DNA from: Candidatus Neomarinimicrobiota bacterium
GTDB taxonomy: Bacteria; Fidelibacterota; Marinisomatia; SCGC-AAA003-L08; TS1B11
Length of the DNA: 36,939 nucleotides
Direction: 5' to 3'
Assembly: GCA_022560655.1 (NCBI GenBank)
Contig: JADFSS010000014.1
Location: 1 to 36,939, forward strand
Each line of letters starts with the position of its first letter. Positions within the stretch are counted from its first letter, which is position 1. A model generated the notes under the pieces. It was not told the origin of the DNA. It did not search any database and saw nothing but the letters and a program-made list of their open reading frames with translations. Made by a program: the position numbers and the translations under genes. This document shows positions 2,441-11,766 of this stretch, in pieces.

Positions 2441-2554
2441 ACCGGTAAAACAAAGGCCCCATCGATCTGTCAACCGGCTGAACCTCTGGCAGTGCGGTCA
2501 CGATTTAGTCACGTTGGCCTCATAAACTGCTGTTTTTTTTCATAACCGACCGCG

Positions 2555-2598
2555 AGCTCATAACCCGAAGGTCGCAGGTTCAAATCTTACCCCCGCTA
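2555..2598 (+). pseudogene. 3' half of a tRNA-Met(CAT) gene
   Basis: The sequence from GCTCATAACCC through the T-loop GGTTCAAAT to CCCCGCTAC matches the anticodon-loop-to-acceptor half of a tRNA with a CAT anticodon. The 5' side is unrelated, and the T-stem carries a mismatch, so it cannot be a working tRNA. A terminator follows at 2610-2640, as after a real tRNA gene. It is probably a remnant of site-specific integration into tRNA-Met. The isoacceptor (elongator, initiator or Ile2) is uncertain. Confidence 0.6.
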
Positions 2599-2609
2599 CG
2601 CGTCGATAG

Positions 2610-3696: not shown

Positions 3697-4182
3697 CTAA
3701 TTCGTACTCATTCCGATGCTGTCTAAAAACTCCAAATAGCCGTCCTTTTTCAAAGTATCCCGTTCTTTCATGTAATAGGCTTGAATTCTGCCGAGACGTA
3801 TCCACGTAGTCAAGTAATAGAGACTCATTGGGGAACTCGTTTGAGCTGTGAGACTCCCCGCCATGTCGCTTTTCAGGACAATGATAATACCCGGATGATC
3901 CTGCTTCATTCGGCGCGTGCCCGAAGCAATCAGTCCCCGGGCGGTCTTCGTAATGATCACCCCAACTGAACTATCCCAGGACGGAGCAATGCCAATTCTG
4001 GCTCCAGTGGCCAAGGGCTCGAAAAGCATGCTGTTTGTCTCCAGCCAGGCCTGCCATTGGCCAACCTCTGGGCCGTCGATTTTTCCAGCCCCATCGGCTG
4101 AGGTCGATCTCGTCGCCAGGTTCCGGAAGCCTCCCAGGAGATTGATGGCCAGCGTTAATCCCAGCAGTGACATCACAAGCAA
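3697..4182 (-). CDS. hypothetical membrane-anchored protein
   Basis: A 161-residue frame begins at TTG 4182. ATG at 4173 is an alternative, and translation could begin as early as CTG 4203, directly after an in-frame stop, which would add LIKKYWY before the first hydrophobic stretch. Residues 1-19 are a single hydrophobic segment (MSLLGLTLAINLLGG), so the protein is probably exported or N-terminally anchored. The rest (for example GVIITKTARGLIASGTRR, then a tail rich in charged residues) matches no family I recognise. It lies between the hydrolase and the sigma/anti-sigma genes on the same strand but is separated by gaps of over 100 nt, so co-transcription is unclear. Confidence 0.5.
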   Translation of the reverse strand: MLVMSLLGLTLAINLLGGFRNLATRSTSADGAGKIDGPEVGQWQAWLETNSMLFEPLATGARIGIAPSWDSSVGVIITKTARGLIASGTRRMKQDHPGIIIVLKSDMAGSLTAQTSSPMSLYYLTTWIRLGRIQAYYMKERDTLKKDGYLEFLDSIGMSTN

Positions 4183-4373
4183 GTACCAATATTTCTTGAT
4201 CAGTTAATTAGCCCGCCGTGATGAGGTCCCTAAATGATGCTGTCAGCGCTTGATTCGGGAGCGGTCTTTCGAGGGAGCTTTTCGGATCATGGGAGTGAAA
4301 CCCTGCTTCTCAAATACTGCGACAGATATTCTAGTTAAGGTTTGTGGTTACTATGCTGGTAGGTAGAATCTGG

Positions 4374-4520
4374 TTAGATATCCCAGTTTGAGCAACAGCC
4401 GCTCAATGTGGTGCACTGACCATATTCATACTCGACTTCATTCGTACCCATTGAAAAGGCGAAGCTTCCCAAGGTGAGAACGGCCATTGCAATCAACGCG
4501 AAGGTCTTTCTCTTGATCAT
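4374..4520 (-). CDS. 48-residue secreted cysteine-containing peptide
   Basis: ATG at 4520 follows a G-rich ribosome-binding stretch (GGGGGGTGA) at close spacing, and the frame runs to TAA at 4374. Residues 1-24 form a clear signal sequence: MIKRK, then a hydrophobic core of FALIAMAVLTLG type. The mature part is about 25 residues, acidic, ending in YEYGQCTTLSGCCSNWDI with three cysteines. It lies 61 nt downstream of the anti-sigma gene on the same strand, so it may be the last gene of that operon. I recognise no family. Candidate roles are a signalling peptide sensed by the anti-sigma factor or a product of the regulon. Confidence 0.55.
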   Translation of the reverse strand: MIKRKTFALIAMAVLTLGSFAFSMGTNEVEYEYGQCTTLSGCCSNWDI

Positions 4521-4581
4521 AGTCACCCCCCTTTCTTCTGCCGATAGTCTTCTTGGAAGCAGGGTTCACTCCATCATGTAT

Positions 4582-5448
4582 TTAAGATTGCTCGATCAGG
4601 GCGATCAATCTTGGCAATTCATCATAGATTGATTCTCCAACCAGCACGATCTTGCTGGTGCTGGTCACCCAGCTGACCACCTGATATTTACCCGCCTCAG
4701 AAACGTGGAACCAGCGTCCACCAATGAGTGTCCGCTCCAATTTGTACCTGCCAAACGTAAAAGGATGTTCCTGGGGTTGTTGGAACAGCACAATCTCATT
4801 GTGTCCGCTCGATATGCTGCACTGCACGGAATGGCAGCAGGCAGTTTTTAACAGTCTGGCATCAGTAATCTCATAATCCTGCGAGAGTAGCGCATAGGAC
4901 GCCAGAGCAAAGGAGATGGAGGCCCCTGCCGACTCGTATTCCACGGGCTCGCTGTGATACAGCTGGTCAAACTGCGTTGGCTCACGGTCGCGTGACACCG
5001 CGTCGAGATATATCCCGTAGTCAAAATCATAGTGGCTCAGCATTTCTGCCCTTTGGGCTTGGGGGCTATAGAGTATTTTGTAGATCACCACCAGATTCGC
5101 CGCGAGCAGAACAGTCAAAGCTCCCATCATCGCAGGCCTGCGAATTGCTGGCGAAATAGTCCCCACCCAGCGCGGCGCGGCCGCCAACACAGCGCGAAAG
5201 CCGCCCGCGGCCCGCATTCGATTTCCAGATTCCAGTCGCTGCCCTATCCCTGCCCATAGTTGCTCGCGATTAGGCAGCGGCGATTGATCAAATTGCGAGG
5301 CCATGTGCGCCCCCTGGACGACTTTCTGGTAAGCTGCCCCACAAGCCGCACAGGAAGCCAGGTGCTCGCGTACTCTATTTGCGAATGCCTCATCCAGTTC
5401 CCCGTCCAGGTAGGCGGAAAAAAATCGTCGCATCCGAAAGTGTTTCAT
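4582..5448 (-). CDS. membrane anti-sigma factor with zinc-finger domain
   Basis: The 288-residue protein opens with an anti-sigma zinc-finger (zf-HC2) domain: the HxxxCxxC motif is His29-Leu-Ala-Ser-Cys33-Ala-Ala-Cys36. A single transmembrane helix spans about residues 108-127 (ALTVLLAANLVVIYKILY). The C-terminal ~160 residues would be periplasmic and contain a cysteine cluster ACCHSVQC. The start lies one base after the stop of the ECF sigma gene, implying translational coupling. It should hold the sigma factor inactive in the cytoplasm until the periplasmic domain receives a signal. The signal is unknown, and the cysteine cluster could bind metal or sense redox state. Confidence 0.85.
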   Translation of the reverse strand: MKHFRMRRFFSAYLDGELDEAFANRVREHLASCAACGAAYQKVVQGAHMASQFDQSPLPNREQLWAGIGQRLESGNRMRAAGGFRAVLAAAPRWVGTISPAIRRPAMMGALTVLLAANLVVIYKILYSPQAQRAEMLSHYDFDYGIYLDAVSRDREPTQFDQLYHSEPVEYESAGASISFALASYALLSQDYEITDARLLKTACCHSVQCSISSGHNEIVLFQQPQEHPFTFGRYKLERTLIGGRWFHVSEAGKYQVVSWVTSTSKIVLVGESIYDELPRLIALIEQS

Positions 5449-5449
5449 A

Positions 5450-6052
5450 CTATGCTTTCTGCAGGTAGGTTCGGTCTACCGCCATTTTACTGAGGATATC
5501 TCTGAGGCGCGTACGGCCCCGATTCAACCGTGAACTGACGGTTCCCAACGAACAATTCAGGATACCTGAAATATCCAGCAGAGATAATTCTTCAATATGC
5601 TTTAAGATGATAACGGTCCTCAATTTTGGACTGAGCTGGCTCAACGCATATTGCAACAGCTCCTGAGTATCCATTTGCCAACGCTGATTCTTTGACACTT
5701 TTTCAAGGTTCATGTCCCTGTCCGCGCCGTCTGCTGCCCCTTCCCCATCGACAGAAGTATCAGCATATTGCCGGTAATATCGCAGCCTCTGGCGCTCTTT
5801 ATCCCGGCAAACATTGAGCGTGACGCGGTATAGCCAGGTGTGGAACTTGGAACCTCCTTTAAACTGAATCAGGTCTCTTAAGACTTTCACAAATACATCC
5901 TGAGTAATATCCTCGGCCTCCTGGGTATTCCCCGTATAGCGTAGGCCCATCCGATAAACCCGTTCGTAGTGCTGCAGGAACAGTTCCTCAAAAGCCCGTT
6001 TGTCACCACGTTGGCAGGCGGCTATTAGTTCATCTTGGGCCGATCCGCTCAT
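5450..6052 (-). CDS. ECF-type RNA polymerase sigma factor
   Basis: The 200-residue protein has the two usual ECF domains. Sigma-2 covers about residues 10-85, with GNTQEAEDITQDVFVKVLRD and FHTWLYRVTLNVCRDK. Sigma-4 covers about residues 135-190, with LSPKLRTVIILKHIEELSL and the helix-turn-helix LLDISGILNCSLGTVSSRL. The length is normal for the family. The gene directly precedes its zinc-finger anti-sigma factor with 1 nt between them. It redirects RNA polymerase to a stress or envelope regulon. I could not identify a confident autoregulatory promoter upstream. Confidence 0.92.
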   Translation of the reverse strand: MSGSAQDELIAACQRGDKRAFEELFLQHYERVYRMGLRYTGNTQEAEDITQDVFVKVLRDLIQFKGGSKFHTWLYRVTLNVCRDKERQRLRYYRQYADTSVDGEGAADGADRDMNLEKVSKNQRWQMDTQELLQYALSQLSPKLRTVIILKHIEELSLLDISGILNCSLGTVSSRLNRGRTRLRDILSKMAVDRTYLQKA

Positions 6053-6174
6053 GGGCCAGAATTGATCGGCTCAATTGGGAGTCTGCTTAGGATATCCACG
6101 CCAGCTTCAATTGATTAGACGTTTGATAGTTCGAAATCATCCCTGAAATTATTCGGAATTGGGGTGTAGTAGAT

Positions 6175-6990
6175 ATGTCCCATGATGCCATCAGTCTGCC
6201 GTGCACGCCTGCCAAGATCGAAGGCTACATCAAGCGTCGGCTCGAGACTGGCCATTAGAAGGGCGGTATCAATGTCGATCTGCGCACCCTGAAAGCCCTC
6301 TTTTCATGGGCGTCAAAAGAGATTACCTGGATACCAACGCATTCGTAAAGGTTGAGATGTTCCAGGTGGCCCCTAGCACGCCAAGACCATTGACACCGGA
6401 AGAGCTCGAGGGGCTTTTTACGGGGTGTCAAAGGGAAAGTCGCTGGTACCCTCTGGTAATGGTTTACTTGCTGACAGGGGCACGGCTTTCTGAGGAGCTG
6501 AAGCCGAAACTATCATGGAAGGATATCGACCTAGAGAACGGGATACTGATACTGCCCTTCCGAAGGGGCCAGAAGTCAACCGAGTTTCCGATGGAGCCAG
6601 TACTCTTGGAAATATTCCGTGACCTCAAGGCGAATCCATACACGAAGGAGAATAGCAATCTGCCTGAAGACCAAGGAGTATCCATTCCCGTTCATTGCAT
6701 CGTACGTTGGCCATAAGATCAAGGCCATCTTGAATAGGGCAGGCATTGACGCAACCGCTCATGATTTAAGGGACTCGTTTGTCAGTCACTTGATTTATCT
6801 GGGCTACTCCCTTGAGGACGTGAGCAAGATCGCCGGACACTCGACGATCAAGGTGACAGAAAGGCATTATTATGAGCAACTGCAGGAGCGCTGGCGGAGC
6901 ATGCTCGCGGATTTGGGAAGCTACTTAGTCCGGAGCCAGCCTGGCGGCAAAACTGAGGCCGTAGAAAAAACGAGTCCGGAAAACGGGTAG
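6175..6990 (+). pseudogene. tyrosine recombinase/phage-type integrase, frameshifted
   Basis: The remnant starts near ATG 6175 with a SAM-like core-binding piece (TPAKIEGYIKRRLETG). It hits an in-frame TAG after about 26 codons and shifts frame near 6317 (KALFSWASK to RDYLDTNAF) and again near 6690 (SNLPEDQ to YPFPFIASYVGHKIK). The catalytic domain is otherwise recognisable: LLTGARLSEEL (first Arg), HDLRDSFVSHLIYLGYS (HxLR), GHSTIKVTERHYYE (His and tyrosine nucleophile). At least two frameshifts and one nonsense codon make it non-functional. It lies about 110 bp from the tRNA-Phe 3' half, as expected for an integrase of an element that used that tRNA. Confidence 0.85.
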
Positions 6991-8886: not shown

Positions 8887-9278
8887 GACATTTACTGTCG
8901 CGGCCGCGCCCACAGATCGCACGGTACGGACGGGGTGCTGCGGGCGGATCCTTTGATCAATTATCGCTTTGAGGGGGTTGAATGGAGCCCCGTTCGTCGT
9001 CATTTCATGCTTCTGTAACATTAAAATTCCTCGCGGGTGATGATGGGGCACTTTTATCCGTCCTTAAAAGACGACCTGGCAGTGGTCTCAGGCTGAACCA
9101 GCAGGGAAGACCCCAAGTGGTACCGCTTGATCCCCGATTCCTAGGCGGCAGCCAGACCCGGGTGCAGCACTTTAGCGGATCCATGCTGGTTGCTGCCAGC
9201 AGTCTTCTCGCACTTAAAGCAGCGAGTGCCGGCGGAATTGTGATTGTGCCACCGGGGTTGGCATCACGCTAGCGATGA
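8887..9278. other. gene-free stretch
   Basis: About 390 bp between the NmrA-like gene and the stop of the DUF5916 gene. The only open frame (8982-9272, plus) has low-complexity composition and no recognisable domain, so I do not call it. No strong hairpin with a T-tract was seen. Confidence 0.4.
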
Positions 9279-11453
9279 TTAGAAACGATAGTTGTACGAA
9301 GCCTTAAAAAAGATTCCCCGGCGCGTTTCCTGGTATCGGTTGAAGACCTTCGCCACGGCGCTATCAGTGGTCTCGGCTAAATTCACGCCATAGCCCAGAA
9401 ACAGCACGCTACCGGGAAAATAACTGAAGCTGGCCAGCAGGTCGGTAGCTATCGACTCCTCCCCCGAGTTGGATTCGCTGATAATACGCAATGACAGGTA
9501 TTTGTTTATTTGGTAGTTCAGTTTGCTGCGGATAATCTGAACATCAAATGCTAGCTCACCTGACGCCCGATTACGAAATTTCTGGTTCTGCCGATTGACA
9601 TCGATGGTCAATTGGTCGGTAGGTTGAAAGACCAGGCCCACGCTGGTTACCACAAGATCGCCCTGAAAGGCGTCATCTGGGTCGAAATTTGGGCTACCCG
9701 CCAGCGAAGATGACCACTTGACCTGCAGCATCCTGTGGATTTGCGTTTGGCCATTTGTATTCCACTGATTCGCATCAAATACCTTACCGTTATACGCGAT
9801 AGTTGCTCGTGGGAATTCCGTCGATATGCTGGTTGATCTTGCGAGACCCGCATTAAGCCATATTGCAGCCCAATGTTCCGGGAGATTCTGGTAAAGATCG
9901 CGCTGGCGGAAGCCATAAAACCCCGTATTCGCGAATTGGATGATGGGATTGTCGAAAAACCAGGTACGGTAGGCCATCCAGTTAAACTTGTTGAGGCCAT
10001 CGCGGGGCACGAACCCATTTTGCAGCACAAAATTCTTGCTGATCTGGTGCAGTCCGAAGGTGATGTGCCAAGTGCGGCTGATGTACCAATAGTCAAAATC
10101 GGCGTTATGTGATCTTTGGACTTCGGCACCCGATGATTCAGCAAATTGGCTCAGTACCACGTTAGACTGTACGAACATATTGCCGTCAATGCGATAGTAC
10201 CCATCCAAAGCAAACGAATGGTTGGCAGCTCCCCTATAGCCTCGGGAAGAAGTCATTGCGCCAATAAAGTTTTCTTCCCCAAAAAGCCGTTTGTAGCGCA
10301 ATATACCCACCGCTGCGTTCTCGCCGGAGCCATCTTCAATTCCAGCCGCTTCGTCAATCGCAAGGAGCGCCGATATACCATTCTGGTCGCCTAGCCTGCC
10401 AGTCACTTTAGCGCCCAAGAGCGGGGCGCCAATCCGCCTGGTATGGGTGCTTGACCTGATACTACTGAAGTTGCTGGATGCCGCCAGTGCGAAATCCTCG
10501 GCACCCTCAAGGAAAAATGGCCGCTTCTCAGGAAAAAACAACGGGAAGCGGGTGTTGGCATCGATTTGGCCCGCATCCGATTCGACCTGGCTGAAGTCGG
10601 GCCGATAGGTCAGGTCCATGGTCAAGCTGGAGGTGAGACCCAGCTTGGCAGTCAACCCGAGACTGTGGCCCGAAATCGCCGGCTCTTTCGCGAGGGTACC
10701 GTCGTTCAACACTTTGACGTCCGATTGTGTCAGCGCGGGCAGCACCTCGTACGTTCGCTTAAATTTCAGATCAATGAAGGTTATGATTGCCATCTGACTT
10801 AACGCTGATCCTCTGTCGGGTGACACTGATGGGAATATGGCAGTTTCGGAGAAACGGATTATTTGCCGGCCGAATTGGATCCCCATTTTCACTGACTTAC
10901 CCACGTTGTAGCGTAGCGACTTGAAGGGTATTTTCAACTCAACTGAATAACCCTCGCTACTAAGTTGTCCACCTGCATCCCAAATAATATCGATAGAATT
11001 GTCTGCGGCTCCGTCTTTAGTTACCAGCCCATCGCCCTGGGAACCTACGCCATTCACCATGAAATAGAGACCGGATTGAGAATCGTTTAATCCATCAATG
11101 GTGACCCCTACCACGTCGTCCTCAAATAGGCCGTCCCATTTGGCCACATTTGCCCGAATCTTGTCAGCCTCCCTGTCGAAAGCTTGGATTGCGAAATAAA
11201 TATTATCATCATCATAAGCAACTTGGACGGTTGTCGTCTCGCTAACCGGTTTGCCGTAGTCGGGCTGAATCGTCTCATAGCCCGAGTAGATTGTGGCCCT
11301 GTTCCAGAAAGACTCATCAAATTTACCGTCGAGGGTCGGAACCTGGTCGATCTTGAGCGGGACGATTCCAAATGGCTGGACTTCATCTGCAGCCGCGACA
11401 AAAGTGCTGCCCACCAATACGAACAGAGTCATCAGAGCATTCAATTTTTTCAA
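9279..11453 (-). CDS. DUF5916 outer-membrane protein with N-terminal CBM9-like domain
   Basis: The 724-residue protein has a signal peptide (about 1-22, ending AAADE). Residues ~30-230 form a carbohydrate-binding family 9-like domain (PTLDGKFDESFWNRAT, VAYDDDNIYFAIQAFD, SVELKIPFKSLRY). It continues into the DUF5916 region with the family's hallmark PLFFPEKRPFFLEGAEDF and GAKVTGRLGDQNG, then alternating beta strands ending in aromatic FFKASYNYRF, a typical outer-membrane barrel C-terminus. The family is widespread in FCB bacteria; the function is unproven, though glycan or peptide handling at the outer membrane is often suggested. It appears monocistronic. Confidence 0.88.
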   Translation of the reverse strand: MKKLNALMTLFVLVGSTFVAAADEVQPFGIVPLKIDQVPTLDGKFDESFWNRATIYSGYETIQPDYGKPVSETTTVQVAYDDDNIYFAIQAFDREADKIRANVAKWDGLFEDDVVGVTIDGLNDSQSGLYFMVNGVGSQGDGLVTKDGAADNSIDIIWDAGGQLSSEGYSVELKIPFKSLRYNVGKSVKMGIQFGRQIIRFSETAIFPSVSPDRGSALSQMAIITFIDLKFKRTYEVLPALTQSDVKVLNDGTLAKEPAISGHSLGLTAKLGLTSSLTMDLTYRPDFSQVESDAGQIDANTRFPLFFPEKRPFFLEGAEDFALAASSNFSSIRSSTHTRRIGAPLLGAKVTGRLGDQNGISALLAIDEAAGIEDGSGENAAVGILRYKRLFGEENFIGAMTSSRGYRGAANHSFALDGYYRIDGNMFVQSNVVLSQFAESSGAEVQRSHNADFDYWYISRTWHITFGLHQISKNFVLQNGFVPRDGLNKFNWMAYRTWFFDNPIIQFANTGFYGFRQRDLYQNLPEHWAAIWLNAGLARSTSISTEFPRATIAYNGKVFDANQWNTNGQTQIHRMLQVKWSSSLAGSPNFDPDDAFQGDLVVTSVGLVFQPTDQLTIDVNRQNQKFRNRASGELAFDVQIIRSKLNYQINKYLSLRIISESNSGEESIATDLLASFSYFPGSVLFLGYGVNLAETTDSAVAKVFNRYQETRRGIFFKASYNYRF

Positions 11454-11766
11454 GGGTTCACCTCCAACCGTTAAATCAGATTATCGGGAATGCCAGCTAT
11501 AGGGTTAGACGTTGGATAGGATGGAAATCATCCCTCCCACACCAGAATTCGGTGACCACGATTCAGTTTTTGGTCGCAGGAATCCTACTGCGTCGCCAAG
11601 CTGCTGCCATCATTGTGTATGTGCGTGCCAGGCACCAACTGATGATGGCCGCATCATGACTATTGGCAGCCCCACCCATAGAGAGATTGGGGGCAATATT
11701 ATCTGCAGGATGTCGGTTGGATTCGGCGATTGACAAACGCTCGCCGCTACAATAAGTTGCCTCAGC
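11454..11766. other. divergent intergenic region
   Basis: 313 bp between the DUF5916 start and the DUF1801 start. It must hold promoters for both directions, but I see no consensus pair with normal spacing. Base composition changes here from moderate GC on the left to clearly GC-rich on the right. Confidence 0.4.

Follow-up and report, generated by a model that had tools for sequence, protein, structure and literature searches.

Is the 48-codon reading frame found behind an ECF sigma/anti-sigma gene pair a gene, and if so, what does its small exported product do? The frame lies in the window, by which we mean the whole 36,939-nucleotide stretch of DNA that was analyzed. The initial annotation described a secreted 48-residue peptide with three cysteines, linked it to the sigma/anti-sigma pair and proposed that matching cysteine elements in the peptide and the membrane regulator form a sensing or feedback pair. 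Coordinates are collected in Table 1.

Table 1. Features of the peptide locus in the window and of context genes in two relatives.
Feature	Coordinates	Strand	Description
Fourth operon gene	3697..4182	minus	protein of ~161 aa; one N-terminal span, cysteine-free extracytoplasmic domain
Inverted repeat, 3' arm	4292..4309	minus	GAAGCAGGGTTTCACTCC in mRNA; repeat encloses the peptide gene
Exported cysteine peptide gene	4374..4520	minus	48 aa; signal sequence ~residues 1-23; tail with C36, C42 and C43
Ribosome-binding site of peptide gene	4526..4534	minus	AAAGGGGGG; strong, ends 5 nt before the ATG
Inverted repeat, 5' arm	4556..4572	minus	GGAGTGAACCCTGCTTC in mRNA; repeat encloses the peptide gene
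Anti-sigma factor gene	4582..5448	minus	288 aa; zf-HC2, one membrane span (~105-127), periplasmic domain
ECF sigma factor gene	5450..6052	minus	200 aa; Pfam and TIGR02937 matches
Predicted ECF promoter of the operon	6115..6142	minus	GGATGATTT-N10-AACGTCTAAT; pattern and matrix scan
Broken tyrosine recombinase gene	6201-6990		two reading frames (ORFs of 171 and 123 aa); adjoins the sigma gene
tRNA-Met fragment	2553-2599		47 nt; 94% identity with the 3' part of the intact tRNA-Met gene that this genome has on contig C11
DUF5916/CBM9-like exported protein gene	9279..11453	minus	outer-membrane type; downstream of the second promoter copy
Second promoter-motif copy	11505..11533	minus	GGATGATTTCCATCCTATCCAACGTCTAAC; pattern and matrix scan
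Exported HMA-domain protein gene (GMTCAGC)	TS1B11 L009 7404-7799		sigma promoter motif upstream
MerR-family metal-type regulator, disulfide-reductase flavoprotein and DUF302 genes	TS1B10-1 L008 4768-7244		divergent from the sigma operon

A very short gene under purifying selection

Translation of the minus-strand frame (4520-4374, with a TAA stop at 4376-4374) gives MIKRKTFALIAMAVLTLGSFAFSMGTNEVEYEYGQCTTLSGCCSNWDI, and the length, signal and three cysteines are as first described. The top 12-residue stretch of the signal sequence has a mean Kyte-Doolittle value of 2.4, and the AFS/MG junction that follows the hydrophobic stretch is, by eye, a plausible signal peptidase I site. The mature tail would be ~25 residues long and contains CTTLSGCC. 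The gene lies 61 bp downstream of the end of the anti-sigma gene.

A search of 100 relatives returned homologues in TS1B10-1 (E 1.4e-15, 60% identity to the window peptide) and TS1B11 (E 1.8e-6, 42% identity), both members of the same family as the window genome. In each, the peptide is encoded in the same frame and directly behind a homologous anti-sigma gene, with GGAAGGAGG and AAAGGAGG at the place equivalent to the ribosome-binding site. The initial annotation had proposed a search for the order sigma, anti-sigma, peptide in related genomes, and had named frameshifts in relatives as evidence against the peptide; both relatives keep the order, and the frame is intact in both. Non-synonymous changes are depleted relative to random substitution, with 0, 1 and 10 of 5000 simulations as low in the three pairwise comparisons, and the frame stays open in only 15-17% of random substitution sets. 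Between the window and TS1B10-1 genes, dN is 0.25 and dS is 1.28. Because the frame and position are kept in two relatives and non-synonymous changes are depleted, we regard the reading frame as a gene and not a chance occurrence: the substitution patterns indicate that the 48-residue peptide is a real, conserved gene under purifying selection.

Among the positions invariant in the three genomes are LTLGSF of the signal sequence, three cysteine columns and an E-Y pair. A vicinal Cys-Cys is present in each copy, within a C-x5-CC arrangement in the window and TS1B10-1 and C-x4-CC-x2-C in TS1B11. The mature tail is more variable than the signal sequence and is poorly conserved in TS1B11.

The window peptide has no family match in Pfam or NCBIfam (E up to 10 and 0.1) or in PADLOC, and no match by tblastn in the plasmid collection. 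The literature searched, on small secreted peptides linked to ECF sigma factors and on sigma factors of Marinimicrobia, contained no account of the operon. The peptide is previously undescribed.

A rare operon flanked by probable remnants of mobile elements

The operon set occurs in three of the 245 genomes of the phylum (the window genome, TS1B10-1 and TS1B11), and a scan of the genome collection returned the same two relatives and no others. The anti-sigma periplasmic domain likewise has no credible relative outside these three among the 245 genomes. A phylum-wide search with a profile of the three peptides gave 33 extra matches, with per-genome E values of 0.006-0.09; five short-frame loci among them were inspected and attributed to chance, being antisense of enzymes or interrupted by in-frame stops.

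A tRNA-Met fragment and a broken tyrosine recombinase gene flank the operon. The tRNA-Met fragment, for which ARAGORN makes no tRNA call, looks like an integration-site remnant, and the recombinase gene probably represents a decayed integrase that belonged to a small island carrying the operon. By their position, the flanking elements, together with the patchy distribution, fit such an acquired island. On a larger scale, G+C climbs sharply from ~0.51 to 0.63 at about 12 kb of the window, and given this step the initial 12-kb part of the contig may have another origin.

The regulators and the fourth gene

Sigma, anti-sigma, peptide and a fourth membrane protein are encoded in this order in all three genomes, which bears out the initial linkage of the peptide to the regulator pair. 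The sigma factor matches sigma-70 regions 2 and 4 (PF04542, 1.6e-15; PF08281, 9.5e-14) and scores 101 bits against TIGR02937 (cut-off 42.9). The anti-sigma factor has a zf-HC2 domain (PF13490) above the cut-off in three of three genomes, with H29, C33 and C36 of the zinc motif H29xxxC33xxC36 invariant. The ACCHSVQC that drew the initial comparison is present in the anti-sigma protein at residues 203-210, and within it CCxSVQC (C204 C205 x S V Q C210) is invariant in the three genomes. The periplasmic domain that carries this motif is the best conserved part of the protein, with 70% and 52% identity to the relatives.

An AlphaFold2 model of the anti-sigma factor, built from three sequences and usable for the periplasmic domain only, reaches a pLDDT of about 80 across much of the 141-288 segment. 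In Foldseek, the periplasmic model matched RseB (E 7e-3) and TM1622 (E 5e-3); these fold matches range from E 5e-3 to 1e-2 with probabilities of about 0.99-1, and are weak in that none falls below E 1e-3.

The fourth protein is 52% and 39% identical to its counterparts in the relatives, and its gene is present in all three genomes. The gene start was placed at a TTG at 4182, yet homology reaches to ~4200, where there is no clear standard start codon. Pfam and NCBIfam gave no known family and the PDB no sequence match, and a structure model was discarded as too poor (pLDDT 45). Comparison with a viral fold library gave no useful match.

A shared promoter motif and a small predicted regulon

The pattern GGANGATW-N(13-14)-CGTCTAA was formed by eye from the regions upstream of the three sigma genes, each of which it precedes. 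Genome-wide, it has two sites each in the window genome, TS1B11 and TS1B10-1, against at most one for a reversed control pattern. No sites occur in four other family members, and looser patterns gave no additional ones. The second TS1B11 site precedes the exported HMA-domain gene, but it helped to form the pattern and so is not an independent match. The second TS1B10-1 site (contig C16) was discarded, as it falls inside a coding region.

The second site in the window genome, at 11533-11505 in the window, was independent of pattern building. It lies ~50 nt before the DUF5916/CBM9 gene on the same strand, and has 12 and 9 contiguous bases in common with the sigma promoter. In a matrix scan it scores as high as the sigma promoter, with the next best window site far below (28.4 vs 15.5), although the matrix was built from the very sites scored, so that the scan shows only the gap to background. 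The DUF5916/CBM9 gene is thus a predicted regulon member, and the regulon is predicted to comprise one or two transcription units per genome. Its composition suggests a tiny regulon that responds to thiol or soft-metal stress, in which the peptide would be the effector.

We also noted, in TS1B11, a gene with a CBM9/DUF5916-like start (by eye) ~7 kb from the operon (L009 481-3138). GCGTCTAACC is present upstream of it and a matching -35 element is absent.

An inverted repeat around the peptide gene

In the window and TS1B10-1, an inverted repeat has one arm just past the end of the anti-sigma gene and the other beyond the stop codon of the peptide gene (TS1B10-1 arms at about 8960-8980 and 9225-9250 of L008), so that a helix of about 23 pairs encloses the peptide gene. 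The flank-to-flank duplex energies of -52.2 (window) and -48.5 kcal/mol (TS1B10-1) are 5.2 and 4.7 SD below those of dinucleotide shuffles, with 0 and 1 of 1000 shuffles as low. Between the two genomes, the core helix shows one two-sided change (G-C to A-U), one change to G-U and a shared bulge. Since the energy by itself is not exceptional within the GC-rich part of the window, the case for the inverted repeat is made by comparison with shuffled versions of that sequence and by its reappearance in a relative. No such pairing was found in the TS1B11 flanks, where a 15-bp hairpin instead lies right after the peptide gene. A search of Rfam gave no match.

A possible thiol or soft-metal stress operon

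What, then, might the peptide do? We put at roughly one half the probability that it is a small exported effector of a compact, self-inducing thiol or soft-metal stress operon. From the domain matches and what is known of the family, the zinc-type anti-sigma domain would keep the sigma factor at the inner membrane. Binding of a soft metal (copper, mercury or similar) by the CCxSVQC-bearing periplasmic domain, or its oxidation, would release the sigma factor, which would then drive transcription from the shared motif, both of its own operon and of one or a few envelope genes. Sec would export the peptide, which would be trimmed to about 25 residues; its three or four cysteines, the vicinal pair among them, could bind metal or serve as a sacrificial periplasmic thiol, lowering the signal that began the response. 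The RNA helix may, we guess, cut out or stabilize the peptide message, which would yield more effector than regulator.

Vicinal cysteines are a usual ligand of soft metals, and this supports the effector reading, as do the precedents of sigma-F/NrsF and the bufferins considered below. It is further supported by the four-gene order kept in three genomes, by purifying selection on a peptide with conserved cysteines, and by the invariance of CCxSVQC in the anti-sigma factor. The promoter motif precedes the sigma gene in all three genomes, and the only other site in the TS1B11 genome precedes the HMA gene, whose product matches PF00403 (7e-10) and is CopZ/MerP-like but below the curated cut-offs. 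This HMA protein has homologues in four family genomes. The TS1B10-1 operon stands divergent from the MerR-type regulator and a flavoprotein of the MerA/lipoamide dehydrogenase type, which scores 303 bits against TIGR02053 (MerA) and 335 bits against the lipoamide dehydrogenase model, in each case under the cut-off. The N-terminal part of this flavoprotein is apparently in another frame.

Other observations weaken the effector reading. In the window, what follows the second promoter site is the DUF5916 gene rather than a metal gene, and the window genome yielded no close homologue of the HMA protein. The MerR and flavoprotein neighbors occur in one genome only, and the mature tail is poorly conserved in TS1B11. 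We hold the metal or thiol reading at even odds because neither the HMA gene nor the MerR, flavoprotein and DUF302 neighbors are conserved across the three genomes.

Comparison with known sigma/anti-sigma systems

ZAS (zf-HC2) pairs such as RsrA and RsiW also have an anti-sigma cistron with an N-terminal HxxxCxxC directly after the ECF sigma gene. The anti-sigma factor described here differs in its periplasmic, predicted RseB-like domain with CCxSVQC, and we know of no description of such a domain.

The operon resembles sigma-F/NrsF of Caulobacter crescentus in pairing an ECF sigma factor with a membrane anti-sigma factor that has conserved, probably periplasmic cysteines, and in its very small regulon with a shared promoter motif; the sigma-F regulon includes genes later named bufferins. 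NrsF is a multi-span anti-sigma factor of another class, whereas the anti-sigma factor of this operon is a single-span zf-HC2 protein with no NrsF/DUF1109 match in Pfam. The two conserved, probably periplasmic NrsF cysteines matter for control of the heavy-metal response (PMC3511200). The effector peptides of sigma-F/NrsF are bufferins with MNIO enzymes, and neither is found in this operon.

Bufferins are Sec-exported cysteine peptides of copper stress, some of which are encoded with sigma/anti-sigma genes (PMC12452194). Like these metal-stress peptides (Buf1/DUF2282, Buf2), which are sometimes encoded beside sigma/anti-sigma genes, the peptide is small, Sec-exported and cysteine-containing. 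In contrast to them, it has no match to Pfam or NCBIfam models, its three or four cysteines are in another arrangement, and its operon has no MNIO or DUF2063 partner. By analogy the peptide may work like a bufferin, yet with no modifying enzyme and no family match it falls outside the group.

Sigma factor, anti-sigma factor and short cysteine peptide are also grouped in methanobactin operons (mbnI/mbnR/mbnA), as they are here. MbnA has a leader and not a Sec signal, and requires MbnB/MbnC; by contrast, the peptide has a Sec-type signal and its operon is missing any MbnB/MbnC-type enzyme.

Alternative readings

The operon might instead answer misfolded or mislocalized envelope components, in which case the peptide would be just another small envelope protein, with its cysteines in a disulfide. 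The RseB and TM1622 fold matches of the anti-sigma periplasmic model and the outer-membrane-type DUF5916 protein, the second regulon gene of the window, point this way. The weakness of those fold matches, the shared promoter motif before the TS1B11 HMA gene and the odd number of cysteines (three) in two of the three peptides lead us to consider an envelope-quality response unlikely.

The feedback idea of the initial annotation can be put more specifically: the exported peptide would bind its cognate anti-sigma factor in the periplasmic domain, perhaps exchanging disulfides with CCxSVQC, and so raise or lower sigma activity. The conserved gene order is consistent with this, the peptide and the anti-sigma factor each retain vicinal cysteines, which lie on one and the same side of the membrane, and the anti-sigma domain model weakly resembles RseB, the periplasmic sensor of the sigma-E pathway. 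The cysteine elements do not match as proposed, however: the two motifs have no residues in common beyond Cys-Cys. A ligand-receptor pair is unsupported because, across these three genomes, the peptide spacing drifts while CCxSVQC stays, where mutual fit would predict otherwise, and variation is greater in the mature tail than in the signal sequence. We know of no precedent for an exported peptide binding its own anti-sigma factor in this way, and consider it quite doubtful that this one does so. That the promoter motif stands before the HMA gene in one relative is explained by an effector role no less readily than by a feedback signal. A further form, in which the secreted peptide is itself the signal, reporting the extracellular metal or redox state by disulfide or metal exchange with CCxSVQC at a dosage set by the RNA helix, seems to us improbable.

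We think it very improbable that the peptide is the precursor of a modified metallophore, a RiPP like bufferin or methanobactin with its cysteines turned to heterocycles before export. Bufferin precursors are indeed Sec-exported cysteine peptides, some linked to sigma/anti-sigma genes, but the conserved operon holds no modifying enzyme, the peptide has no Pfam or NCBIfam match, and the MNIO enzyme (PF05114) is absent from the window genome and TS1B11, with one in TS1B10-1 on another contig. That the conserved element is an RNA, with the inverted repeat and enclosed segment acting in regulation or processing and the reading frame incidental, is scarcely credible: a helix does enclose the gene in two genomes, but selection acts at the codon level on the frame in all three pairs, TS1B11 keeps the peptide without the helix, and Rfam has no match.

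Significance

With this family, the outputs of ECF sigma stress operons gain very short exported cysteine peptides, of a size that gene callers often drop. Were it true that the peptide signals, it would represent a new way of controlling an anti-sigma factor. For the phylum Neomarinimicrobiota/Fidelibacterota, for which there is little experimental data on regulation, the operon offers a promoter motif that can be tested and, in CCxSVQC, a candidate periplasmic thiol sensor.
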